Positions 13,519-42,993 of a DNA stretch of 64,000 nucleotides are shown in pieces. Source of the DNA: an uncultured Pseudomonadota bacterium (GTDB lineage: Bacteria; Pseudomonadota; Gammaproteobacteria; Steroidobacterales; Woeseiaceae); NCBI GenBank assembly GCA_913055625.1, contig CAJXJW010000001.1:434001-498000 (forward strand), in the 5' to 3' direction. How positions within the stretch are numbered: position 1 is the stretch's first letter; the number at the start of each line of letters is the position of its first letter. A program made the position numbers and the translations under genes. The notes below the pieces were generated by a model. The model did not search any database, was not told where the DNA came from, and saw nothing but the letters and a program-made list of their open reading frames with translations.

Positions 13519-13878
13519 GTGACGGACCGCAACCTGATAGCATCGAATGACATGACCGGCACCTACCGGGTTCCGGCTCAGGCTCAGCGCAGCGCTCCGG
13601 CAACCGGCACGCCGGCGTCACAGGCCGGCGAAACCTTGCCGCTTCGCGGCGTCGACCGCCAGGAACTCGAGGCGCTGGCCGAGAAACTGAACCTCGCCAG
13701 CCGGTCGATCGGGCGTGACCTGCGATTCAAGGTGGACCTCGATCGTCACAGCGCGGTCATCCAGGTCATCGACCGGGATACCGGGGAAGTCATCAGGGAA
13801 ATACCACCGGAGCGCGCTCGCGTTTCGGCCACGGACAACGGCGAACTCGTACTGCGGCTGCTGGACAGCCGGGCATGA
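13519..13878 (+). CDS. flaG: FlaG family flagellar protein
   Basis: A 119-residue FlaG-like protein. The conserved part is the C-terminal half (about residues 50-119: FKVDLDRHSAVIQVIDRDTG then EVIREIPPE), the usual FlaG core. The N-terminal third is polar and variable. FlaG sits between flagellin and fliD in many polar flagellar clusters and affects filament length, but its exact role is unsettled. It starts with GTG at 13519 after GGAGAACGAC; the ATG at 13552 is an alternative. Confidence 0.87.
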   Translation: MTDRNLIASNDMTGTYRVPAQAQRSAPATGTPASQAGETLPLRGVDRQELEALAEKLNLASRSIGRDLRFKVDLDRHSAVIQVIDRDTGEVIREIPPERARVSATDNGELVLRLLDSRA

Positions 13879-16166: not shown

Positions 16167-17495
<1,329 letters not shown>

Positions 17496-17599
17496 CGCCG
17501 TTCGCCGTCCGGCGGAGGCCCCTCCCGCAACGTCATTTTCTTGACGCTCGCACCCGTCGAGTGAGCCATAACCTGTTGTATTTATAAGAAATACAAAAA

Positions 17600-17615
17600 T
17601 GGCACGCATCTTGCT
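17600..17615 (+). promoter_or_regulatory. Sigma-54 promoter for fleR-fliE operon
   Basis: TGGCACG-CATC-TTGCT is a perfect -24/-12 element after a 104-base AT-richer gap from fleQ. It implies FleQ activates the fleR-like gene and the fliEFGHIJ genes behind it. Because the -12 box ends at 17615, translation must start downstream. Confidence 0.9.
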
Positions 17616-19342: not shown

Positions 19343-20977
19343 ATGGAAAACAAGAACGTGACTGAAAGCGCGCCGCAGGCGGTCAGCAACCTGAACCTCG
19401 GTGGCGTACTCCGGATCCCGGCCGTGCACCAGGCGATGCTGCTGATTGGCATCGCGGCGGCCGTGGCGGCCGGTTTTGCGATCGTCCTCTGGTCGCAGAC
19501 GCCCGGCTACACGACGTTGTTCGGCGAACTCGAGTCCGGGGAGGCGGCTGAGATCGCCGACGCGCTGCGCTCGGCGAACATCGACTACAAGCTGGACGAG
19601 AAGAACGGCGGGATCCTCGTGCCGGAGTCGGCGCTGCACAACGCCCGCCTGCAGCTCGCGTCGCAGGGTCTGCCGGCCAGCGCGGCGGGCGGCATGAACT
19701 TGCTGCAGGACCAGTCGAGCTTCGGTGTCAGCCAATTCATGGAAAACGCCCGCTACCAGCACGCGCTGGAAGCCGAGTTGGCCCGCACCATCGCCAGTCT
19801 CGGGAGCGTGCGCGACGCGCGTGTGCACCTGGCGATTCCGAAGCAGTCGTCGTTCATCCGCGACCGCAAGTCCGCCAGTGCGTCGGTCCTCGTGCACCTG
19901 CACCGGGGCCGCGTCCTCGAGGCGGAACAGGCCGGCGCCGTCGTCAACCTCGTCGCGGCCAGCGTGCCCGACCTGTTGCCCGCCAACGTCACGGTCGTCG
20001 ACCAGTTTGGCACGCTGCTGAGTGCCGGTATGCATGCCGCGGACGCCCAGGCCAACAGCCAGTTTCGCTATGTCCGCAAGCTCGAAGACGTGTACCGGGC
20101 GCGTATCGTCGACCTGCTGACGCCGATCCTGGGGCCCGGCCGCGTGCGGGCGCAGGTCGTCGCTGACGTCGACTTCACGATGACCGAGGAGACGCGCGAA
20201 TCCTTCGACCCACAGCGGACGGTCGTCCGCAGCGAACGCGTCAGCGAAGACCTGACGACGGGCGTAGGCAACGGCGCCTCCGGCATCCCGGGCGCACTCA
20301 GCAACCAGCCGCCCGAAGCTGCCGAAGCGGAAAGCACCGCGTTCGTCGGCCCGTCCGAGGCGGTTCAGAACAGCGCAAAGACCAGCACCCGCAACTACGA
20401 GGTGGACCGGACCATCAGCCACACCCGTCCGCAGGCCGGCCGCATCGTCAAGCTGTCCGTCGCCGTGCTCGTCGACGAGGGGGCGAACGGCGAGGCCGAC
20501 GAAGGCGCCATACGGATCGATGAGGCCGCGCTCGCGAACTACACGGCGCTGGTCAAGGAGGCCGTCGGCTTTGACGAAGCGCGCGGTGACAGCGTCGTCG
20601 TCCTCGGCGAGTCGTTCCTGCAGGCTGACGATGGCTCGGTCGTGGAGCCGCCGGCGTTCTGGGAGAAGCCGGTGCTGCGCGACACGATGAAGCAGATTCT
20701 CGGCGCGCTGATTGTGCTGGCGATCGCGTTCGGCATCGTCCGGCCGATGCTGCGCGGCGTGTTCACGAGCAACGGGCAGCCGGCGCTGGCGGGTGAATAC
20801 CTGGGTGGCGGCGGAAACTTCCCGGTGCCGTCCGGCGGCGGGCGTCTCGCCACCGCCGGCGGGCAGGGTGGCATGGTGAGTTTCGATGAGAAGGTGGCGG
20901 CCGCGAAGAACATCACCGGCCGAGACCCGGCACGGGTGGCGCAACTCGTGAGGAAGTGGGTGGCTGGCAATGAGTGA
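19343..20977 (+). CDS. fliF: MS-ring protein FliF
   Basis: A 544-residue membrane ring protein. The first transmembrane helix is near residues 32-52 (AMLLIGIAAAVAAGFAIVLW), and the second near 451-468 (QILGALIVLAIAFGIVRPML). Between them lie the periplasmic ring-building domains, with NYEVDRTISHTRPQAGRI typical of FliF. The C-terminal tail (DPARVAQLVRKW) is the FliG-binding part. Its end overlaps fliG by 8 bases. Length is normal (about 540-570). Confidence 0.96.
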   Translation: MENKNVTESAPQAVSNLNLGGVLRIPAVHQAMLLIGIAAAVAAGFAIVLWSQTPGYTTLFGELESGEAAEIADALRSANIDYKLDEKNGGILVPESALHNARLQLASQGLPASAAGGMNLLQDQSSFGVSQFMENARYQHALEAELARTIASLGSVRDARVHLAIPKQSSFIRDRKSASASVLVHLHRGRVLEAEQAGAVVNLVAASVPDLLPANVTVVDQFGTLLSAGMHAADAQANSQFRYVRKLEDVYRARIVDLLTPILGPGRVRAQVVADVDFTMTEETRESFDPQRTVVRSERVSEDLTTGVGNGASGIPGALSNQPPEAAEAESTAFVGPSEAVQNSAKTSTRNYEVDRTISHTRPQAGRIVKLSVAVLVDEGANGEADEGAIRIDEAALANYTALVKEAVGFDEARGDSVVVLGESFLQADDGSVVEPPAFWEKPVLRDTMKQILGALIVLAIAFGIVRPMLRGVFTSNGQPALAGEYLGGGGNFPVPSGGGRLATAGGQGGMVSFDEKVAAAKNITGRDPARVAQLVRKWVAGNE

Positions 20978-21980
20978 AGCAACAGGCATGCAGGCCAGCG
21001 GCACGGAACGGGCGGCACTCCTGCTGATGACGCTGGGCGAGCAGGAGGCAGCCGAGGTGCTGCGCTACATGAATGCTGACGAAGTGCAGGCAATCGGGAC
21101 GGCCATGGCGTCGATGAAAAAGGTCACGCGCGACGATGCGGACTTCGTGCTCGATAATTTCATTACCGACTTCGAAGACAACGTCGTGCTCGGCGCTGAC
21201 GCGCAGAGCTACGTTCGCAACATCCTGTCGAACGCGTTCGGGCCGAGCAAGGCGAACGCGTTCATCGACCGGATCATGGCCGGCGAGGACGCTACCGGAC
21301 TCGAAGCCCTGAAGTGGATGAGTTCGCGCGACGTCGTGAAGATCGTCAAGGACGAGCATCCGCAGATCGTTGCGATCGTTCTCGCCTACCTCGGTGCCGA
21401 CCAGGCTGCCGAGGTCGTTGAGCAGCTGCCGGAGGAGGTGCGCTCCGACATCCTGATCCGGGTCGCGACGCTGTCGGACATCCAGCAGGGCGCGTTGGCG
21501 GAGATCGAGAACCTCATCGCCAGCAAGGCCAGCGGCGACGGTGCGGGCGCGGCGCGCAAGGTGGGCGGCGAGAAAGTGGCCGCCAACATCGTGAACGCGC
21601 TGAAGGTCGATCGCGGCCAGGCCCTGCTGGAGCAGATCAAGGAGAAGGACGCCGAGGTCTCGGATCGCATCGCGGAGATGATGTTCACGTTCGACACGTT
21701 GCTGAACGTCGCGGACCGTGGCATCCAGGCGCTGCTGCGCGAAATCTCGAACGACCTGCTGGTCGTCGCGCTGAAAGGCTGCGACCCGGCGGTGTCCGAC
21801 AAGCTGCTGAACAACATGTCGAAGCGCGCATCGGCGCTGCTGAAGGAGGACATGGAGGCGAAGGGGCCGATCAAGCTCTCGGAAGTGGAGGCCGCGCAGA
21901 AGGAAATTCTCGACGTGGCACGGCGCTTGTCGGAATCGGGCGACATCGATCTCGGCCAGGGCGACGACGAGTATGTCTGA
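20970..21980 (+). CDS. fliG: Motor switch protein FliG
   Basis: A 336-residue rotor protein that binds FliF and interacts with the stator. The EHPQ motif (DEHPQIVAIVLAYL, Glu129) marks the middle domain, and the C-terminal torque domain carries FTFDTLLNVADRGIQALLRE with the expected charged residues. It overlaps fliF at the start and fliH at the end by 8 bases each. The stator partners are the PomAB proteins at 38-40 kb. Confidence 0.97.
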   Translation: MSEATGMQASGTERAALLLMTLGEQEAAEVLRYMNADEVQAIGTAMASMKKVTRDDADFVLDNFITDFEDNVVLGADAQSYVRNILSNAFGPSKANAFIDRIMAGEDATGLEALKWMSSRDVVKIVKDEHPQIVAIVLAYLGADQAAEVVEQLPEEVRSDILIRVATLSDIQQGALAEIENLIASKASGDGAGAARKVGGEKVAANIVNALKVDRGQALLEQIKEKDAEVSDRIAEMMFTFDTLLNVADRGIQALLREISNDLLVVALKGCDPAVSDKLLNNMSKRASALLKEDMEAKGPIKLSEVEAAQKEILDVARRLSESGDIDLGQGDDEYV

Positions 21981-26610: not shown

Positions 26611-27603
26611 ATGAGCGACCAGATCATTTCCGACGAAGAGAAGAGCGCGCTGCTCGATGGTGTCGAGAGCGGCGACGTCGAGGTCCACTCGAGCACCGGA
26701 CCGCGCTATGCGACCGTGGCGGAGTTCAGCATCCCGCCGCACAACTGCATCGTCTCGAACAGCTTTCCGCGCCTGCAGAAGCTGAACCGAAATGTCGCGG
26801 GCAGCTTCGGCAAGGCCGTCAGCGTGATGCTGAACCGCAAGGTAGACGTCCTGCCGGGGCCGGTTTCGATCGACACCTGGGGCGAATTCTCCGGACGCGG
26901 CGACGCGCCATCCGTACTGTACGCGTTTTCCGCAAACCCGTTGACGGGCAACGCCGTGATCATCGTCCCGGCTGCCCTGGTCGGGCACATCGTGGAGACG
27001 TTCTTCGGTGGGCCCGCACTGCGTCGCGGAGAGCGCCGTGGCGGCGAGTTCACGCCGGGCGAACTGAAGGTGGTCTCGCTGTTCTGCGAGGAACTGGCGC
27101 GCGCAATCGCGACGACCTGGAAAGGCGTGACCGAGTTGTCGCCGCAACGCACCGGGCTCTACCAGAGCACCGACGTCGTCGACGTGCTCGACGGAGCCGC
27201 CGAGATCGTCGCCTGCGAGTTCGTCGCGCAGTTCGGCGAAGAACACTTCGAGTATCACGTGGCCTGGCCGGTCGCGATGCTGGCGCCGCTGCTGCCCGTG
27301 CTCGAAGGGCAGAAGAAGAACCGCGATGCCGCGCAGGACGCCCGCTGGGAACAGGTGCTCCGCGCGACCCTGCCGGACGCAACCGTCGGCCTGACGACCT
27401 GCATCGGCAACGCACGCCTGAACCTCCGCAGCATCGCCGACCTGGCGGCCGGCGATGTCATCGAGTTCGTGAATCCGCGGCGCGGCCGCATTTTTGCCGG
27501 CAGCGTGCCGGTGCTGGAAGGCCGCTTCGGCGTGCATGACGGCCGCTACGCCATCGAGGCGGGCCGCTGGCTCACGAATGACGCCGAGCCGCGTACCCAC
27601 TAA
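26611..27603 (+). CDS. fliM: Motor switch protein FliM, divergent N-terminus
   Basis: A 330-residue C-ring protein. The middle CheC-like domain (about 50-230) and the C-terminal SpoA-like domain (ATVGLTTCIGNARLNLRSIA then AAGDVIEF) are clear. The N-terminus reads IISDEEKSALLDGV where typical FliM has LSQxEIDALLxGV, so the CheY-P binding motif is weak: Glu-Ile-Asp has become Glu-Lys-Ser. The loop usually read as GGDGR is GGPAL here. It lies 11 bases after fliL, with fliN next. Confidence 0.92.
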   Translation: MSDQIISDEEKSALLDGVESGDVEVHSSTGPRYATVAEFSIPPHNCIVSNSFPRLQKLNRNVAGSFGKAVSVMLNRKVDVLPGPVSIDTWGEFSGRGDAPSVLYAFSANPLTGNAVIIVPAALVGHIVETFFGGPALRRGERRGGEFTPGELKVVSLFCEELARAIATTWKGVTELSPQRTGLYQSTDVVDVLDGAAEIVACEFVAQFGEEHFEYHVAWPVAMLAPLLPVLEGQKKNRDAAQDARWEQVLRATLPDATVGLTTCIGNARLNLRSIADLAAGDVIEFVNPRRGRIFAGSVPVLEGRFGVHDGRYAIEAGRWLTNDAEPRTH

Positions 27604-27636: not shown

Positions 27637-28002
27637 ATGAATGAAGAAACGACGAAAGACAGCGCATCAAAGCCGGGCGCTGCCGCGAACTACGCGCCGG
27701 ACCAGCTCCAGGACAACGGCGCGAGTGCGGCCGGGGGCGAGGTCAATCTCGACCTCGTACTCGACATCCCGGTCAGTGTCAGTCTGCGCGTCGGCTCGAC
27801 CGACATCGCGATTCGCGATCTCGTCAAGCTGGTGGAAGGATCGGTGATCGCCCTGGACCGCGAGGCAACGGAGCCGATGGACCTGCTGGTCAACGGCACG
27901 TTGATCGCGCGCGGCGAGATCGTCGTCGTCGACGGCCGCTTCGGCGTTCGCCTGACGGACGTCGTCAGCCCGCTCGAACGTATCGAGACGCTCAGCCAAT
28001 GA
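27637..28002 (+). CDS. fliN: Motor switch protein FliN
   Basis: A 121-residue C-ring protein. The SpoA domain is typical: VNLDLVLDIPVSVSLRVGST, then LVKLVEGSVIALDREATEPM and LVNGTLIARGEIVVVDGRFG. The N-terminal 35 residues are polar and variable. The end overlaps fliO by 4 bases (ATGA). FliN docks FliH and takes part in switching. Confidence 0.96.
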   Translation: MNEETTKDSASKPGAAANYAPDQLQDNGASAAGGEVNLDLVLDIPVSVSLRVGSTDIAIRDLVKLVEGSVIALDREATEPMDLLVNGTLIARGEIVVVDGRFGVRLTDVVSPLERIETLSQ

Positions 28003-33453: not shown

Positions 33454-34704
33454 GTGAAGATCAAGAGATATTTGGACAAGGACATGCGGCGCGTGCTGCA
33501 GCAGGTGCGCGCGGAGCAGGGACCCGATGCCGTGATTCTGTCGAATCGCCGCGTCCCGGAGGGCATCGAGGTCATCGCTGCGATCGACTACGACGAGTCT
33601 CTCGTTCGGCATGCCACCGGCGTCCCCGCCGAACCTGCGCAGAGGTCGGAACCGGCTGCCGTTTCCGAGACTGACGAAACGGAGGAGGTGCGGGCAGCCG
33701 CGATCCCGGCGGCCCGGAAGACGACGCCGATCGCCGACGCCAGGGAAGTCGACGATGCGCGCCTCGATGCGCCACGTAGCGTGCGCGACGAACTGACGTC
33801 GCTGCGCGGCCTGCTGGAGACCCAGATGGCGGGCTTGATCTGGAAGGAAACCGCGCAGAAGAGCCCGTTGCGGGCGCAGGCGCTGCGCAATCTCGCGAGG
33901 CTCGGCATCGCACCGGACGTAGCGAGCCGCGTCGTCGACCGGCTGGAGCCGATCGACGAGGTTCGTCGGCTCTGGCACGCACCGCTTACCGCGCTTGCAA
34001 CTCTATTGCCGGTGCGCGAGGAGACCTTGCTCGACGAGGGCGGCGTCGTCGCGCTGGTAGGACCGACCGGCGTCGGCAAGACGACGACCATCGCCAAGAT
34101 CGCGGCGCGCTACGCGATGCGCCATGGCGATGACGGCATTGCGCTGATTTCGGCAGACGCCTATCGCATCGGCGCGCGCGAGCACCTGTCAGCGTTTGCG
34201 AACATCATCGGCGCGAACGTCTACACCGCCGGCAGCACCGGGGAACTCTCCGACCTGCTCGCGAAACTGCGCCACAAGCGACTGGTCCTGGTGGATACCG
34301 AGGGCCGCAGCCCGCGCGACCGCAGCCTGGCGGATCGCCTGGCGGCGTACGGCAGCAACAGCGATCGCGTGCGCTTCTACCTGACGCTGTCGGCCGCGAG
34401 CCAGACCGCGTCAATCGACGAGGCCATCCGCGAATTCCGGCGCATCCCGCTCGAAGGCTGCGTCGTGACGAAGATCGACGAGGCGGCGCAGCTCGGCGGC
34501 ATCATCAGCTCACTGATCCGCAATGACCTGCCCGCGTGCTGGTTCTCCGACGGGCAACAGATCCCGGATGACCTGCATGCCGCCGCGCGCAAACGCATGT
34601 GGCTACTGAACCAGGCCGTGGACTGCCTGGAGCACCACGAGCCGTCGATCGACGAGCAGTTCATGGCGGCAAACTACGCCACGGGGGCCGTTGCCCATGC
34701 GTGA
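33454..34704 (+). CDS. flhF: Polar-flagellum GTPase FlhF
   Basis: A 416-residue SRP-type GTPase that marks the pole and number of flagella. The N-terminal basic part starts MKIKRYLDKDMRRVLQQVR. The G domain has G1 GPTGVGKTTT (203-212) and G4 TKIDEA. The G3 motif reads DTEG (Asp281, Glu283) instead of the common DTAG. It starts with GTG at 33454. Its end overlaps fleN by 8 bases, the usual flhF-fleN pairing. Confidence 0.94.
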   Translation: MKIKRYLDKDMRRVLQQVRAEQGPDAVILSNRRVPEGIEVIAAIDYDESLVRHATGVPAEPAQRSEPAAVSETDETEEVRAAAIPAARKTTPIADAREVDDARLDAPRSVRDELTSLRGLLETQMAGLIWKETAQKSPLRAQALRNLARLGIAPDVASRVVDRLEPIDEVRRLWHAPLTALATLLPVREETLLDEGGVVALVGPTGVGKTTTIAKIAARYAMRHGDDGIALISADAYRIGAREHLSAFANIIGANVYTAGSTGELSDLLAKLRHKRLVLVDTEGRSPRDRSLADRLAAYGSNSDRVRFYLTLSAASQTASIDEAIREFRRIPLEGCVVTKIDEAAQLGGIISSLIRNDLPACWFSDGQQIPDDLHAAARKRMWLLNQAVDCLEHHEPSIDEQFMAANYATGAVAHA

Positions 34705-35572
34705 GTCGAACCAGGCTGAACAGTTGCGCCGGCGAATGGCGCGGCCACCCGTGAAAGTCTATGCCGTCTGCAGCGGCAAGGGCGGGGTGGGCAAGACCAA
34801 CGTGGCGACGAACCTGGCGATCGCGCTGGGGAACCTGGGTCGCAATGTCGCGCTGCTCGACGCCGACGTCAGCCTCGCAAACGTGGACGTGCTGCTTGGC
34901 CTGCAGCCGCGCTACAACCTGTCGCACGTCGTGGCGGGCGAGGCCGACCTGGAGTCCACCGTGCTCGCGGGTCCGGGAAACGTGCGCATATTCCCGGCAT
35001 CGTCGGGCAACTTTCGGATGACCGAGTTGCCGGTGGCCTCGCAGGTGAATCTCATCCGGGCATTCAGCACACTGTCGAACCAGCCTGACGTGCTGGTCGT
35101 CGATACGTCGTCGGGTATTTCGCCCGAGGTCGCCCGCTTCGTGCAGGCCGCGCAACACGCGGTCGTCGTCGTGTGCGACGAACCTGCGTCGATTACCGAT
35201 GCGTACGCACTGATCAAGGTTTTCAGCCGCAACTACGGCATTACGCGCTTCAACGTCGTCACGAACCGCAGCCGCCGCAAGCAGTCCGGGAAGCAGCTGT
35301 TCGACAAGCTGCGCCGCGTCACCGACAGCTATCTCGACGTGGTGCTGCGGCACCTCGCCGATGTGCCGGAGGACCGCTACCTGGTGAAGGCCGTGCAGGA
35401 ACAGCGGGCGGTGCTGGACGCGTACCCCCGTAGCACGTCCGGCACGGCGTTCGCAGAGCTCGGCAATGCTGCCGACGCCCTGCCGGCGAGGCGAGATGCG
35501 TCCGGCGGCATCGAGTTCTTCTTCGAGCGCCTGCTGTCCGGCCCCGGCTGCCGGGAGGGGAAGGTGGCATGA
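34697..35572 (+). CDS. fleN: Flagellar number regulator FleN/FlhG (MinD-like)
   Basis: A 291-residue ParA/MinD-type ATPase. It has the deviant Walker A SGKGGVGKT (26-34, Lys33), LLDADVSLANVDVLLGL and a DTSSGI switch. FleN partners with FlhF and represses FleQ in Pseudomonas, keeping one polar flagellum. The ATG at 34697 has GGGGG 9 bases upstream; an in-frame TTG at 34691 is weaker. The C-terminal stretch (GGIEFFFERLLSG) may be the membrane-associated helix. The stop overlaps fliA (ATGA). Confidence 0.95.
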   Translation: MRESNQAEQLRRRMARPPVKVYAVCSGKGGVGKTNVATNLAIALGNLGRNVALLDADVSLANVDVLLGLQPRYNLSHVVAGEADLESTVLAGPGNVRIFPASSGNFRMTELPVASQVNLIRAFSTLSNQPDVLVVDTSSGISPEVARFVQAAQHAVVVVCDEPASITDAYALIKVFSRNYGITRFNVVTNRSRRKQSGKQLFDKLRRVTDSYLDVVLRHLADVPEDRYLVKAVQEQRAVLDAYPRSTSGTAFAELGNAADALPARRDASGGIEFFFERLLSGPGCREGKVA

Positions 35573-36288
35573 TCGCCTACAGCCAGGTGGAGACCGTCGG
35601 CGCGCCGACGCAGGACGAGTTGGTCATCGCGAACCTGTCGCTGGTCAAGCGCATCGCGTACCACCTGTCCGCCCGGATGCCGTCCAGCGTCGACATTGAC
35701 GACCTGATCCAGGCCGGCATGCTTGGCCTGATCGAGGCGGCGAGTTCCTTCGACGCGAGCCGCGGTGCGAGTTTCGAGACCTACGCCGGTATCCGGATTC
35801 GCGGCGCAATGATCGACGATATCCGGCGGCACGACTGGACGCCCCGGTCCGTCCACCACAAGTTCCGCCAGGTCGCGGACGCCATTCACGCCATCGAAGC
35901 GCGGGAAGGACGCGCACCGGAGCCGGCCGAAGTGGCCGGGCATCTCGGCATCGAACTCGACGAATACCACCGTATTCTGCGTGACAGCGCGAGCTGCCGG
36001 CTGTGCAGCCTCGATGAGGGCCTGGGCGACATGCCGACCGGGCGCGACCCGGCGGCAGCGGCCGGAGAGGCGCCTGACGAGGTGTTTTCAAAAAACCAGT
36101 TCGCGGAGCAACTCGCGGCGGCGATCGATGAATTGCCGGAGCGTGAGAAGCTCGTGCTGTCACTCTATTACGAGCAGGACCTGAACCTTAAGGAAATCGG
36201 CGCGGTGCTCGACGTTTCGGAGTCCCGCGTCAGCCAGATCCACAGCCAGGCGGTGCTCCGACTCCGCCGTGTCACGGAGAACTGGTAA
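35569..36288 (+). CDS. fliA: Flagellar sigma factor FliA (sigma-28)
   Basis: A 239-residue RNA polymerase sigma factor. Region 2 has DDLIQAGMLGLIEAASSFDA and FETYAGIRIRGAMIDDIRRH; region 4 has LPEREKLVLSLYYEQDLNLK and VSESRVSQIHSQAVLRLR. It recognises the TAAAG-N14-GCCGATA sites before flgM, flgK, fliC and pomA in this window. FlgM would inhibit it. Translation is coupled to fleN by ATGA. No chemotaxis genes follow. Confidence 0.97.
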   Translation: MIAYSQVETVGAPTQDELVIANLSLVKRIAYHLSARMPSSVDIDDLIQAGMLGLIEAASSFDASRGASFETYAGIRIRGAMIDDIRRHDWTPRSVHHKFRQVADAIHAIEAREGRAPEPAEVAGHLGIELDEYHRILRDSASCRLCSLDEGLGDMPTGRDPAAAAGEAPDEVFSKNQFAEQLAAAIDELPEREKLVLSLYYEQDLNLKEIGAVLDVSESRVSQIHSQAVLRLRRVTENW

Positions 36289-36299
36289 GAGAGGACGAG

Positions 36300-36479
36300 A
36301 TGCCGGATTACCTGTCGCGAATTTCGAACGTCAATCCCGCCTACCCCGTGCGCCCGGCGCGCCCGGGTAAGCGGGACGCGGAGAAGAAGGACAGGGACCG
36401 TGCGCGCCGCGACGACGAAGCGCCGGCAAACCACGAGCCGGATACCGATCAACCCCCCACCATAGACGAGTTAGTGTGA
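36300..36479 (+). CDS. Small 59-residue protein between fliA and DUF2802 gene
   Basis: A short frame starting ATG 11 bases after the fliA stop, behind GAGAGGACGAG, and ending in an ATGA overlap with the next gene. The protein starts MPDYLSRISNVNPAYPVRPA and continues as a charged, likely disordered tail (many Arg, Asp, Glu) ending PPTIDELV. I do not recognise it. The coupled layout and good ribosome site support translation. In many relatives this spot holds cheYZAB-cheW. Confidence 0.6.
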   Translation: MPDYLSRISNVNPAYPVRPARPGKRDAEKKDRDRARRDDEAPANHEPDTDQPPTIDELV

Positions 36480-36910
36480 TGAATGTTTTCGATGCCGATA
36501 TAGCGTACCTGGTCATCATCGCGAACGCGGTGCTACTGGCGGCTGCCGCGCTCGCGGTCCTGCGCTTTACGCGCCAGTCGAGGGCGCTCCTCGATTTCTG
36601 GCAGAGCCCGACCGGCGCCGCCGTCAGCGAGGAGTCCAATCCCGCGGAGCACATGCAGAAACTGCTGCGGTCCGTCCAGACCCTGGAAGCCCGCGTGCGC
36701 GAGCTGCAGGAGCAGGTCGGGGAGGTCGCGGAACGGCCCGAGCCGGAGACGCGAGGAAACGTGAGGCCGCTGCCGATCGACAATGCGGCCCGCCTGGCGC
36801 GAACCGGCGCGAGCGTCGAGGAACTCACACGGACCTGCGGCCTCAATATCGGGGAGGCACGCTTGCTGCAGCAACTCCATGCCAAACGTCAAACCGCCGA
36901 GTGCGGCTGA
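36479..36910 (+). CDS. DUF2802 motility-linked membrane protein
   Basis: A 143-residue protein with one N-terminal transmembrane helix (residues 8-30, IAYLVIIANAVLLAAAALAV). Residues 55-80 are a coiled coil (LLRSVQTLEARVRELQEQVG), and the C-terminal DUF2802 motif is ARTGASVEELTRTCGLNIGE with ARLLQQLH. This family usually sits just after cheW in polar-flagellum loci of Pseudomonas and Vibrio; its function is not known. A GTG three bases upstream is also in frame. Confidence 0.85.
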   Translation: MNVFDADIAYLVIIANAVLLAAAALAVLRFTRQSRALLDFWQSPTGAAVSEESNPAEHMQKLLRSVQTLEARVRELQEQVGEVAERPEPETRGNVRPLPIDNAARLARTGASVEELTRTCGLNIGEARLLQQLHAKRQTAECG

Positions 36911-37792: not shown

Positions 37793-38398
37793 CTAGAGCG
37801 AATCGAGCTGGAGACGACGCATCCGCAGCGTCTCCGATTCGCGGCTGAACATGTGCTGGATCAGGGTCTCGCGCAGCTCCGGCTTCATGTCGTGAAACTC
37901 GACGGCGATGCCGTGGCTCAGTTTCGGGTCGCTGCTGTCCGGCGGCGGGACCTCCCGGACCACCGTCGCGAACGCGTCGACGAAGCGGTTGTCGGACTCG
38001 AGCAGGAACTCGATCAGCAGTTTCGTGCCGACCGGTATCGCCTGCGACGACGAGAACACGATGCCGTCCGCGCTCAGCTCACAGACCTGCGGCGTGGTAT
38101 TCGCGAGCTCTGTTCGCAGCTTCTGCAACTCCGGCATCTGCTGAACGATGACGTTCACCTTGTCGTTCAGCAGGCTGAGGCACCGCGCGACGGGGCTCGA
38201 ATCAGCGTTGAGCCGCTGCATCTCCGCACCGATTCGTGCATCGATGTCCGCCATGGCCGAGGCCACGCGCGCGCCGAGCCCGTGGCGCAGGCGTCGTCGT
38301 TCCAGGCCCTCGTTGAAGTCGAGGTCGCTTAAGGGTTCGTACCGGAGGTACACCGTTTCGCGAACGCGAAAGGACCGTCTCTGTTGCGTGTCGTTCAT
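37793..38398 (-). CDS. PilZ-type c-di-GMP receptor in stator operon
   Basis: A 201-residue cytoplasmic protein. An arginine motif RRSFR lies at residues 7-11, a helical insert (about 40-100) follows, then the second PilZ signature as ELSADG (the usual form is D/NxSxxG). The C-terminal half is beta-rich and ends in a helix. It follows pomB by 4 bases on the same strand, so it is made with the stator. By analogy with YcgR-like proteins it may brake or tune the motor when c-di-GMP is high. The split layout and Glu at the first motif position make binding uncertain. Confidence 0.75.
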   Translation of the reverse strand: MNDTQQRRSFRVRETVYLRYEPLSDLDFNEGLERRRLRHGLGARVASAMADIDARIGAEMQRLNADSSPVARCLSLLNDKVNVIVQQMPELQKLRTELANTTPQVCELSADGIVFSSSQAIPVGTKLLIEFLLESDNRFVDAFATVVREVPPPDSSDPKLSHGIAVEFHDMKPELRETLIQHMFSRESETLRMRRLQLDSL

Positions 38399-38402
38399 AG
38401 CG

Positions 38403-39302
38403 CTACTCTCCTGCGCTCGCGAGTTCGGGCAGACTGCCGTTCTCGATGCTCATTTGGCGAAGCTGGTCGAGTTCGCCGCCGCGGACGATGGCAATGTCGA
38501 CGCGCCGGTTCTTGGCGCGGTTCTCGGCCGTGTCGTTCGCTGCGCGCGGCTCGGTATCGGCATGGCCCGTTACCGTGATGCGGGCCGGGTCGATGGGGGA
38601 GACGTCGAGCACCTGGTGCGCGACGGAAACCGCGCGCGACGTCGACAGTTCCCAGTTGGAACGAAATCGAGGTGTCGATATCGGGACGTTGTCAGTGTGG
38701 CCGGAGATCGTCACCTCGCCGCTGTTGTCGTCGATGAGACGTGCAATCTTCGTCAGGACCGGCAGGAATTCCGGCCGCACGTCGGCCATGCCGGAGTCGA
38801 AAGACGCGTTTTCCATGATGTGAATCGTGACGCGCAGCCCCTCCGTTTCGATGGAGACGTAGCCGCGCTCGATCTCCTCTTTCAGCGCGATGCGCAAGCG
38901 CTGCGCGTGCTTGCGCGTTTCCTCGATCTCCTCGAGTTCCCGGTTCAGCGCGTCGAGCGTGCTCTTGTTGGAGTCTATCGTGAACTGCCGCACCGTATTG
39001 ATCGGCGTGTCCTCGGGTTTGCCGGGGCTGAACTCGCGCGCCACGACGCTCGTGCCTTTCGGAATCGACTTGGCTTCTACGTCGGCCTGCACGCCGAAGG
39101 CTTCTCGCATCGAACCCGACAGCTGCTTGAACTTCAGGACGTCCATCTCCGAGAACGCGAGCAGCAGTACGAAGAAGCACATCAGCAACGTCATCAGGTC
39201 GGCGAATGTCATCACCCAGCCGGGGAGGCCGGGCTTTGCAGCCTGTTCTGCCGTGACGTCCACTTGGCGAGATGACGCGGGGCGCTTAGTCCGCCGCGTC
39301 AC
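38403..39302 (-). CDS. pomB: Sodium-type flagellar stator protein PomB (MotB family)
   Basis: A 299-residue stator B subunit. The single transmembrane helix (about 29-51) is GWVMTFADLMTLLMCFFVLL followed by LAFSEMDVLKFKQ, close to PomB; Asp35 is the ion-binding residue. A plug-like region follows, then an OmpA-like peptidoglycan-binding domain with SGHTDNVPI and NRRVDIAIV. It overlaps the pomA end by 17 bases. The similarity to PomB rather than H+-type MotB suggests sodium drive; sequence alone does not prove it. Confidence 0.9.
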   Translation of the reverse strand: MTRRTKRPASSRQVDVTAEQAAKPGLPGWVMTFADLMTLLMCFFVLLLAFSEMDVLKFKQLSGSMREAFGVQADVEAKSIPKGTSVVAREFSPGKPEDTPINTVRQFTIDSNKSTLDALNRELEEIEETRKHAQRLRIALKEEIERGYVSIETEGLRVTIHIMENASFDSGMADVRPEFLPVLTKIARLIDDNSGEVTISGHTDNVPISTPRFRSNWELSTSRAVSVAHQVLDVSPIDPARITVTGHADTEPRAANDTAENRAKNRRVDIAIVRGGELDQLRQMSIENGSLPELASAGE

Positions 39303-40050
39303 CCTCCTTGCGTTTCGAACGAGGCAGGTAGGCTTCGAGCAGGTTTTCGATCACGCGCGGGTTCTGGCCGCTCTGGATGCTCAGCAGCGCGTCGATGATC
39401 AGTGACTTGTTCATGTTCTCCTCGCGGCTGCGAACTGCCAGTTTGTCCGCGATCGGCAGCGCGATCATGTTTGCGAGGATCGCACCGTATAGCGTCGTCA
39501 GGAGCGCCACGGCCATCGCGGGCCCGATCTTTTTCGGATCATCCATGTTCGCGAGCATCTGCACGAGGCCGATCAGCGTACCGATCATGCCCATTGCGGG
39601 GCCCACGTCGCCGATGGCCTTGAAGATGTCCTGTCCGTCGCTGTGCCGGCGCAGGGTTTGCGCGAGATCCTTCTGCAGCATCGCGCGCACCGTATCCGCT
39701 GGGTGCCCGTCGATCAGCAGGCCGAGGCCGTTCTTCATGAAGGAGTCCTTGATCTCGCGGTCTTCCAGCGACAACAGGCCGCCCTGGCGCGCAGCCTTGG
39801 CGAGATCGACGGCTTCCTCGATCAGTTCCTCAGCGTTCATCGGGCGGTACAGAAAAGCCTTGACGGCGATCGACGCGGCACCGAAGAACTTGCCCAGGCT
39901 GAACTTCATCATCGTGACGAGCGCGGTGCCGCCGAGTACGACGAGAATCGACGGCGTGTTCACGAAGGTCCCCGCCGAACCGCCGAGGAAAATCGATACC
40001 AACACAATCGCCAGGGCCCCGAAAAGCCCGATGAGTGTCGCAAGGTCCAA
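39286..40050 (-). CDS. pomA: Sodium-type flagellar stator protein PomA (MotA family)
   Basis: A 254-residue four-helix stator A subunit. MDLATLIGLFGALAIVLVSI starts the protein like PomA; GDVGPAMGMIGTLIGLVQML and GPAMAVALLTTLYGAILANM are the conserved helices 3 and 4 that line the ion path. The cytoplasmic loop (about 60-150) carries the charged residues that contact FliG. It heads the pomA-pomB-PilZ operon, with a sigma-28 box about 45 bases upstream. Confidence 0.93.
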   Translation of the reverse strand: MDLATLIGLFGALAIVLVSIFLGGSAGTFVNTPSILVVLGGTALVTMMKFSLGKFFGAASIAVKAFLYRPMNAEELIEEAVDLAKAARQGGLLSLEDREIKDSFMKNGLGLLIDGHPADTVRAMLQKDLAQTLRRHSDGQDIFKAIGDVGPAMGMIGTLIGLVQMLANMDDPKKIGPAMAVALLTTLYGAILANMIALPIADKLAVRSREENMNKSLIIDALLSIQSGQNPRVIENLLEAYLPRSKRKEGDAAD

Positions 40051-41593: not shown

Positions 41594-41857
41594 TTGTCAG
41601 CATCCAATCGGACGATCCTTATCCTTGGCGACGACCCGCAGGTCGCTCTGCACCTCAAAGAGCTGGTCGAGTTCATGGATGTCCCCCATGTCATTACCGC
41701 CATGCCGGGCGACTGGAAGGCACGGCTCGGCGACGGGCGGCTCGAAGCCCTGTTCGTGAACCCGGAACTGCCGGACGAGACGGTGTGCAGCGTCCTTGAC
41801 GAATTGTCCGAGTTCGACCCGAACGTGTCCGTCGTCATGCTCGAGGAAGCCGTGTGA
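41594..41857 (+). CDS. FleQ-like regulator, N-terminal receiver-like part
   Basis: An 87-residue frame, [20 protein letters not shown] then [20 protein letters not shown], resembling the N-terminal FleQ domain (the DW pair and spacing fit). It starts TTG at 41594, with GGAG about 10 bases upstream, and ends at a TGA that overlaps the next gene's GTG by 4 bases (GTGA). The domain stops short of its last helix; that helix appears to continue in the next frame. It is either one half of a split FleQ paralogue or the first part of a frameshifted gene. Confidence 0.65.
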
Positions 41858-42993
41858 GAAATCGCGCCGGCCTCCGGGAGCGGTTTCCGTGGGCCAGGAT
41901 TCACTCCCTGACTTACCCGTTGCGGCTCGATTCCCTGCACGATGTGCTCGAGGAAATCCGGGCGTCGCACCTGCCCGTGCACAACGAGTCGCACCCACTT
42001 GGCGAGGGCAACCTGGTCGCCGCCAGCGCCGCGATGAAGGACGTCATTCGCCTCGTCGAGCAGGTCGCACCCTCGCAGGCCACTGTGCTGATCACCGGCG
42101 AGTCCGGGGCGGGCAAGGAGCTCGTCGCGCGCCGCATTCACGAATTGTCCGGCCGCAAGGGCGAATTCATCGCGGTGAACTGCGGCGCAATCCCGGAGAA
42201 CCTGCTCGAAAGCGAATTATTCGGCCACGAACGCGGCGCTTTTACCGGCGCGGTCAAGGCTCGTCCCGGCAAGTTCGAGCTGGCAAACGGTGGCACGTTC
42301 TTTCTCGACGAAATTGGCGACATGCCGCCGGTCATGCAGGTCAAGCTGCTGCGTGTTCTCGAGGAACGGGTCATCGAGCGCGTCGGCTCGACCACGAGTA
42401 TCCCGGTCGACGTGCGCCTGGTCGCGGCAACGCACCGCGACTTGCCGAAGCGTATCGCGAGCGCCGACTTCCGGGAGGACCTCTACTACCGGCTGAGCGT
42501 ATTCCCGATCGAGATTCCGCCGCTGCGCGAACGCCGAGACGACATCGTGCCGCTCGTGCAGGAGTTCGTGCGGCGCCTCGGCGAGAACGGCCGGACGCGG
42601 ATGCAACTGAGTGACGATGCGCTGCGGTGTCTCTGCGAATACGATTGGCCGGGGAACATCCGGGAGCTGTCGAACCTCATCGAGAGGCTCGTCGTGACCT
42701 GCCCGGGCGGGCAGGTCGATATCACGGACCTGCCACGCGCGATCAGCGGCCTCGAACGTATCGCGGCGGAGGATGAGGCGACGCCGGCCGCGCAGGGGCC
42801 GGTGCCGATTGCACCGCAACTGCCGGAAGGCGGTATTGCGCTCAAGGATTACCTCGACCAGGTGGAGCGCCGGTTGATCGAAGAGGCGCTGACCGACACG
42901 GACGGCGTCGTGCAGAAGGCGGCGGAAAAACTGGGCCTCGGGCGCACGACGCTGGTCGAGAAAATGCGGCGCTTCGACATCCACAAGCCCTGA
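41854..42993 (+). CDS. FleQ-like sigma-54 activator, AAA+ and HTH part
   Basis: A 379-residue frame. Residues 1-45 look like the end of a FleQ receiver ([20 protein letters not shown]). The AAA+ domain has Walker A GESGAGKE (82-89), GAFTGA (128-133) and FFLDEIGDM. The C-terminal helix-turn-helix is [20 protein letters not shown]. No LFRS motif is present. Together with the preceding frame it makes about 466 residues, a normal FleQ length. It is a second FleQ-type activator beside the one at 16 kb; its targets are unknown. Confidence 0.78.

Follow-up and report, generated by a model that had tools for sequence, protein, structure and literature searches.

FliM of this uncultured Woeseiaceae bacterium, encoded at positions 26611–27603 (+) of the window (the whole stretch of 64,000 nucleotides that was analyzed), appears to be a motor switch protein that has been uncoupled from CheY. 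The explanation that we favor, and hold to be probable as a whole, is that the ExxAL core of its N-terminal peptide has been kept for a CheY-independent job, plausibly the docking of FlhG. A sequence-only reading of the same DNA had described the peptide as degenerate for CheY binding and proposed that the motor may not be switched by CheY-P in the normal way. The observation was confirmed and is explained in outline; the interpretation was right with regard to CheY and wrong with regard to decay.

Results

The window contains a full flagellar locus, with fliD at 13715, fleQ at 16167, fleR at 17615, the genes from fliF (19343) through flhG (34691), and fliA at 35569. The motor should turn, because the EHPQ motif of FliG (20970–21980, +; assigned from its sequence and from relatives) is intact and both motA (39286–40050, −; assigned by place and sequence) and motB (38403–39302, −; Pfam) are open and conserved in relatives. 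The stretch between fleQ and fleR (17496–17614) contains no fleS (sensor kinase) gene here or in locus L072 of G060; a fleS match is present at this site in G005, G021, G062, G064, G066, and G067. A second FleQ-like sigma-54 activator is encoded in two frames that overlap by 4 bases, one for the N-terminal 87 aa (41594–41857, +) and one for a 379-aa AAA+/Fis piece (41854–42993, +). All 9 genus loci compared show this split, with a frame offset of 2 in seven and of 1 in two.

The 330-aa product of fliM was identified from its translation, from Pfam matches, and from a profile comparison. The middle domain (PF02154) scores 64.6 bits against a cut-off of 27 and the C-terminal SpoA-type domain (PF01052, FliMN_C) 40.8 bits against 23.8, and a profile built from 16 relatives matched the solved FliM 8umd over residues 1–319 with an E-value of 3.5e-45. 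The NCBIfam FliM equivalog TIGR01397 is matched over residues 4–317 with 140.9 bits, below its cut-off of 219.6; this cut-off is a naming threshold and not a defining trait of FliM, and the identity is upheld despite the shortfall because the gene sits between fliL and fliN. The N-terminus reads MSDQIISDEEKSALLDG, with ISDEEKSALL at residues 6–15 as originally reported, and runs in register with that of E. coli FliM. The residues I5, I6, S7, D8, E9, E10, K11, S12, A13, L14, and L15 are thus in step with what we take to be I5, L6, S7, Q8, A9, E10, I11, D12, A13, L14, and L15 in the E. coli protein. An AlphaFold model predicts a helix at residues 8–20 with low confidence (mean pLDDT 66.6).

The rewritten part of the peptide spans residues 4–26 (26620–26688, +), where the alignment and the contacts listed in Table 3 of PMC3774744 place changes at residues 8, 11, and 12 and retention of residues 10, 13, 14, 15, and 17. 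In that table Q8 of FliM contacts Val-108 of CheY, D12 contacts Lys-119, L6 contacts Ile-95, and I11 and L14 touch Ile-95, Ala-99, and Tyr-106; in the simulations described in PMC7012829 the salt bridge between Lys-119 of CheY and D12 of FliM was held for 90% of the time. The contact residues Q8, I11, and D12, a trait of the CheY-switched subset of FliM proteins, are replaced here by D8, K11, and S12, and L6 (as Ile), L14, and L15 are retained. The codon of K11 is at 26641–26643 (+), where the CheY-binding consensus has Ile. The second motif singled out in the sequence-only reading, GGPAL in place of GGDGR, was also read correctly, at residues 133–137 (27007–27021, +), the usual site of GGxG(R). 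It does not indicate altered switching: the loop varies in most relatives, with and without che genes, and the che-bearing G005 and G021 also depart from GGDGR, so that it is uninformative.

To this sequence evidence the genome adds the absence of a flagellar chemosensory system. The che genes are indeed missing after fliA (35569–36288, +; assigned by sequence and relatives), where a gap at 36289–36475 (+) is followed directly by a DUF2802 gene (36476–36910, +; Pfam); in G058, a relative from the order, this place is taken by cheY, a CheZ match, motA, and motB. The gap between fleQ and fleR (17496–17614, +) corresponds to the place where G005 and G021 carry a che cluster, between fleQ and fleS. 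The genome-wide search that had been called for was run on the assembly to which the window belongs (G000; 3,626,003 bases, 20 contigs, 99.45% complete), and a complete che system elsewhere was not found. One MCP-domain match and three CheW-domain matches occur in G000, all at 53–62 kb of contig C11, in a cluster of two REC proteins, CheW, MCP, a CheA of 1818 residues with three Hpt stretches, HATPase, CheW, and receiver domains, and a second CheW. We take this layout to be that of a Chp/Pil (pilus-type) chemosensory system. Outside this cluster no CheA, CheW, or receptor was found in the whole of G000, and CheD is absent from it as well.

Canonical CheY was searched for with the G058 protein, which scores 196 bits against the NCBIfam CheY cut-off of 189. 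When all candidates in 60 genomes were scored, orthologues with at least 191 bits were found in 4 of 60 relatives (G058, G046, G037, and G052), the same four that carry CheZ. Neither canonical CheY nor CheZ was found in G000 or in any of the 37 genus genomes. Among the matches listed, the best CheY match in the 37 genus genomes has 72 bits, and the best in G000, the receiver ending the Chp-type CheA, has 62 bits. Canonical CheY, CheZ, and a flagellar set of CheA, CheW, and MCP, by which a CheY-regulated switch would be recognized, are therefore all lacking from G000, and because no flagellar che system was found there, a motor that works without normal CheY-P switching is well supported at the level of gene content. 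The doubt originally cast on normal switching is thus supported by the missing che genes, and the arguments from the GG loop and from decay of the peptide fall away.

Decay is contradicted by the conservation of the peptide within the genus. An alignment of 16 FliM sequences from the same genus (alignment A1) comprises 14 che-less members, whose genomes have one MCP match each, of PilJ-like size, and lack a flagellar CheA, and the two che-bearing members G005 and G021; 9 of these 16 FliM bearers are less than 90% complete. Among the 14 che-less relatives, residues 4–25 have a mean pairwise identity of 70%, which ranks third of 307 windows of the same width, compared with 38% for residues 61–130 and 41% for residues 131–232. 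Residues E10, K11, A13, L14, L15, G17, and G21 are invariant in all 14, and residue 11 is Val in the two che-bearing members. The same K11 form is found in G099, a Woeseiaceae genome assembled as a single contig of 4,059,891 bases. A profile scan for FliM of near relatives returned 26 loci, mostly from Woeseiaceae MAGs and some labeled only as Gammaproteobacteria or Proteobacteria; four of the 26 are distant FliM proteins (one from Flavobacteriaceae and three from Rhizobiales/Beijerinckiaceae). The altered peptide is common to related species and conserved, so it is real and neither a sequencing error nor a one-off. The term degenerate accordingly describes the N-terminus when it is set against the E. 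coli protein and the CheY consensus and does not describe its selection; a decaying N-terminus is ruled out by the conservation in the genus together with a core that is invariant across the order. This suggests that the FliM tail may keep another job after loss of the residues that touch CheY. In the genus as a whole (g1), 21 of 37 genomes have no FliM match, and flagella are apparently often lost or missed there.

The comparison was extended to 198 genomes of the order that are at least 90% complete, 111 of them with FliM and 110 with a readable FliM N-terminus (that of G225 is lost at a contig end). In genomes with two FliM genes (G105, G131, G136, G158, and G179) the copy with the better motif score was kept, and the register of the motif in G143 was set by hand. 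Canonical CheY is present in at least 35 of the 198 genomes with up to the best 21 candidates per genome scored, a limit by which CheY may have been missed in receiver-rich genomes. In the 34 genomes with CheY, Q8 is kept in 34, I11 in 33, D12 in 34, and all three in 33. The corresponding counts in the 76 genomes scored as lacking CheY are 15, 9, 21, and 5, the last being G163, G219, G210, G191, and G059. The core shows no such dependence, with E10 and L14 in 110 of 110 sequences, A13 in 109, and an aliphatic residue 6 in all 110. Fisher's exact test gives p ~1e-21 for the association of Q8, I11, and D12 with CheY, a value that ignores descent. On a tree of the FliM body CheY changes 8 times, and the supported branches yield 6 independent pairs; 2–3 of these pairs differ in the expected direction, none in the opposite direction, and 3–4 not at all (sign test, p 0.25–0.5). 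The association of motif and CheY is consistent and is not proven by independent events, with shared ancestry accounting for much of it. Two further tail types were seen in this set. In family f15 (18 of 18 read) the tails have the form E[SNA]xALR, with L15 changed to Arg, and there is no canonical CheY. The five two-FliM genomes belong to family f10, and their second gene usually has a divergent tail, for example LSPEELEALVEG or LTSDEVQALVDA.

That the change in FliM followed from che loss in the genome at hand was also not upheld. In G005 and G021, which have V11, the che cluster has the order cheY1-cheA-cheW-MCP-STAS-X190-cheR-cheD-cheB-HDOD-cheY2-X163 and lies within the flagellar locus. 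K11 nevertheless occurs together with non-PilJ receptors (3, 2, 1, and 6, respectively) and a CheA of 685–735 residues in four genomes (G061, G062, G064, and G067); in the last three of these the stretches around the che cluster contain no flagellar structural gene. A tree of 34 rows, built from twelve flagellar genes with fliM left out, places G005 and G021 as sister to a K11 clade of 21 rows with a support of 99–100, and scatters the four che-bearing K11 genomes within that clade. The fewest changes on this tree are 5 for che and 1 for residue 11, a count that took G061 as che-bearing in spite of its very divergent CheA and that was the same whether low-completeness MAGs were treated as che-less or several of them were omitted. 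The unrooted tree of CheA, CheR, CheD, and CheB from G005, G021, G064, G062, and G067 (five rows only, with no starred branch and G061 left out) has the same shape as the flagellar tree, and because of this match the che cluster looks inherited and repeatedly lost.

Among the 21 Woeseiaceae with FliM that are at least 90% complete, CheD is found in seven, namely G005, G021, and G126 with V11 and G072, G104, G187, and G133 with K11; it was not found in the other 14, all of which have K11. Some handles apparently name one genome twice (G061 and G187, G062 and G072, G064 and G133, G067 and G104, G060 and G195, G066 and G088, G065 and G165), and G063, G065, G060, and G066 were reached through loci and have no completeness figure. 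The comparison shows that K11 arose once at the base of the clade, before the loss of che. K11 as a result of che loss is ruled out by the che-bearing K11 genomes and the flagellar tree: the clade in which the residue is fixed includes four members that have retained CheA and receptors. The Woeseiaceae che cluster of the CheD type ends in the receiver cheY2 and the 160-aa X163 (L040, 8602–9583; L043, 6764–7696; L097, L099, and L102), which are perhaps a receiver-partner pair. X163 matches no Pfam or NCBIfam family above cut-off, and X190 gave only a V-SNARE match below it.

Discussion

The favored explanation is that this flagellated Woeseiaceae bacterium has a normal C-ring FliM in a motor that would run without chemotaxis input. 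The CheY-CheZ pair that follows fliA in some relatives of the order is absent from the whole sampled genus, the CheA cluster is also gone from G000 with the Chp-type cluster alone remaining, and FliM has none of the three side chains specific for CheY. The hydrophobic residue 6 and E10, A13, L14, L15, and G17 remain under strong selection, which would be due to a CheY-independent job. The best candidate for this job is docking of FlhG, a protein that binds the N-terminus of FliM in polar flagellates and there governs the number of flagella as well as assembly of the C-ring. The motor would then be unidirectional, or its control would lie in expression or in c-di-GMP acting through the PilZ protein encoded beside motBA.

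FlhG as the retained partner is plausible by analogy with such flagellates. The gene (34691–35572, +) encodes a MinD-like ATPase, as judged from its place in the operon, a phmmer search, and matches to MinD-type NCBIfam models. Three FlhG columns are fixed differently between K11 and V11 genomes and none is charged; a co-change of charge with K11 was thus rejected, and with no column matching the charge change the comparison does not positively support FlhG as the partner. The C-terminus of FliN (27637–28002, +; Pfam FliMN_C, 80.5 bits) reads ERIE here and in the K11 genomes read, ERIM or ERIL in G005 and G021, and ERIR or ERVR in most relatives outside the clade; judging from these residues, a charge pair between ERIE and K11 of FliM is possible. 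Several points weigh against the favored explanation. The association with CheY is not significant when ancestry is respected, and five genomes scored as lacking CheY keep Q8, I11, and D12. Because four K11 Woeseiaceae keep CheA and receptors, K11 need not mean the loss of every CheY input; the CheYs of these genomes, of the W106 or L106 type, could bind through other residues, and the Chp-type cluster has two REC proteins that might conceivably influence the motor.

These last points lead to the view that the peptide has been re-specified for another CheY-like input, with cheY1 or cheY2 of the CheD-type cluster, or a receiver of the PilG/PilH type, binding the EKxALL form. It fits the high conservation of the N-terminus, the coexistence of K11 with CheA clusters in G061, G062, G064, and G067, the apparent inheritance of the cluster in all but G061 of the six che-bearing Woeseiaceae, and the two stand-alone receivers of the C11 cluster. 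However, the 14 of 21 Woeseiaceae without CheD all keep K11, so that the peptide is kept where the CheD-type cluster is gone, and in an alignment read by eye cheY1 has K95, K99, W106, and T119 and cheY2 has L106. We regard such re-specification as unlikely.

That a c-di-GMP effector took over, either the PilZ protein or a Cle-like receiver with the FliM tail as part of its dock, is in our judgment improbable. The PilZ-domain gene (37793–38398, −; PF07238, 28.8 bits) is a candidate c-di-GMP input to the motor and a candidate brake on it; in the genus the order PilZ-motB-motA-GGDEF adjoins the fliA-DUF2802 end of the locus, and in Caulobacter the Cle proteins have been reported (PMC5677366) to bind c-di-GMP and to dock on the switch at its canonical CheY site. 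The RRSFR motif of the PilZ protein is kept in 12 of 12 aligned sequences of the genus and reads RQDFR in G040, but many of the PilZ sequences have an imperfect second c-di-GMP motif, and the gene is also present in the che-bearing G005 and G021 and is thus not a replacement tied to che loss. Simple relaxation, with the tail drifting functionless once CheY is gone, would account for the wide variation at positions 8 and 12 among the genomes without CheY, but is disfavored and highly improbable, as none of the 76 such genomes has a change at E10, A13, or L14 and few stretches of FliM are as well conserved in the genus as this tail.

Returning to the CheY-uncoupled FliM with a retained core, we tentatively suggest a more general form of it, in which the motif would consist of two overlapping signals: a half specific for CheY (Q8, I11, and D12), which drifts or becomes rewritten once CheY has gone, and an ExxAL core that does not depend on CheY and is read by FlhG or another partner. 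In the Woeseiaceae K11 would have been fixed first and the CheA cluster lost several times later, the switch being uncoupled before the sensory machinery was discarded. The comparison offers a natural experiment in which the portion of the FliM tail that binds CheY can be told apart from the portion required for something else. Woeseiaceae are common bacteria of marine sediments, and if their motors have no chemotaxis input, their flagella would be used to attach or to disperse under controls of another kind. In a recent metagenome study complete flagellar gene sets have been described as a niche-specific trait in most sediment Woeseiaceae MAGs, with no mention of che genes in the available part of the text (PMC12175321). 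In the open-access literature we found no paper on the FliM N-termini of che-less Woeseiaceae.

Among known systems, the C11 cluster shares with Chp/Pil systems the two REC proteins, the CheW, the MCP, the multi-Hpt CheA, and the second CheW; these systems in known cases act on type IV pili and not on FliM. With FliM of the E. coli/Salmonella type, which has an EIDAL N-terminus, the protein shares the domain order and the N-terminal register, and it differs in having Asp for Q8, Lys for I11, Ser for D12, and GGPAL in the loop. Docking of FliM with FlhG has been described for Shewanella putrefaciens and other monotrichous flagellates (PMC12826062); the locus here resembles theirs in its flhF, flhG, and fleQ-type regulators and in the retained FliM N-terminus, whereas the FliM peptide differs in sequence and FlhG binding is here a candidate function. 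Variants of EIDAL in C-ring proteins have likewise been described before: PMC6946799 reports full or degenerate EIDAL motifs in FliN and FliY of other bacteria and conservation of EIDAL in most FliM proteins. Unlike those cases, the altered motif here is that of FliM itself, in a clade without CheY.
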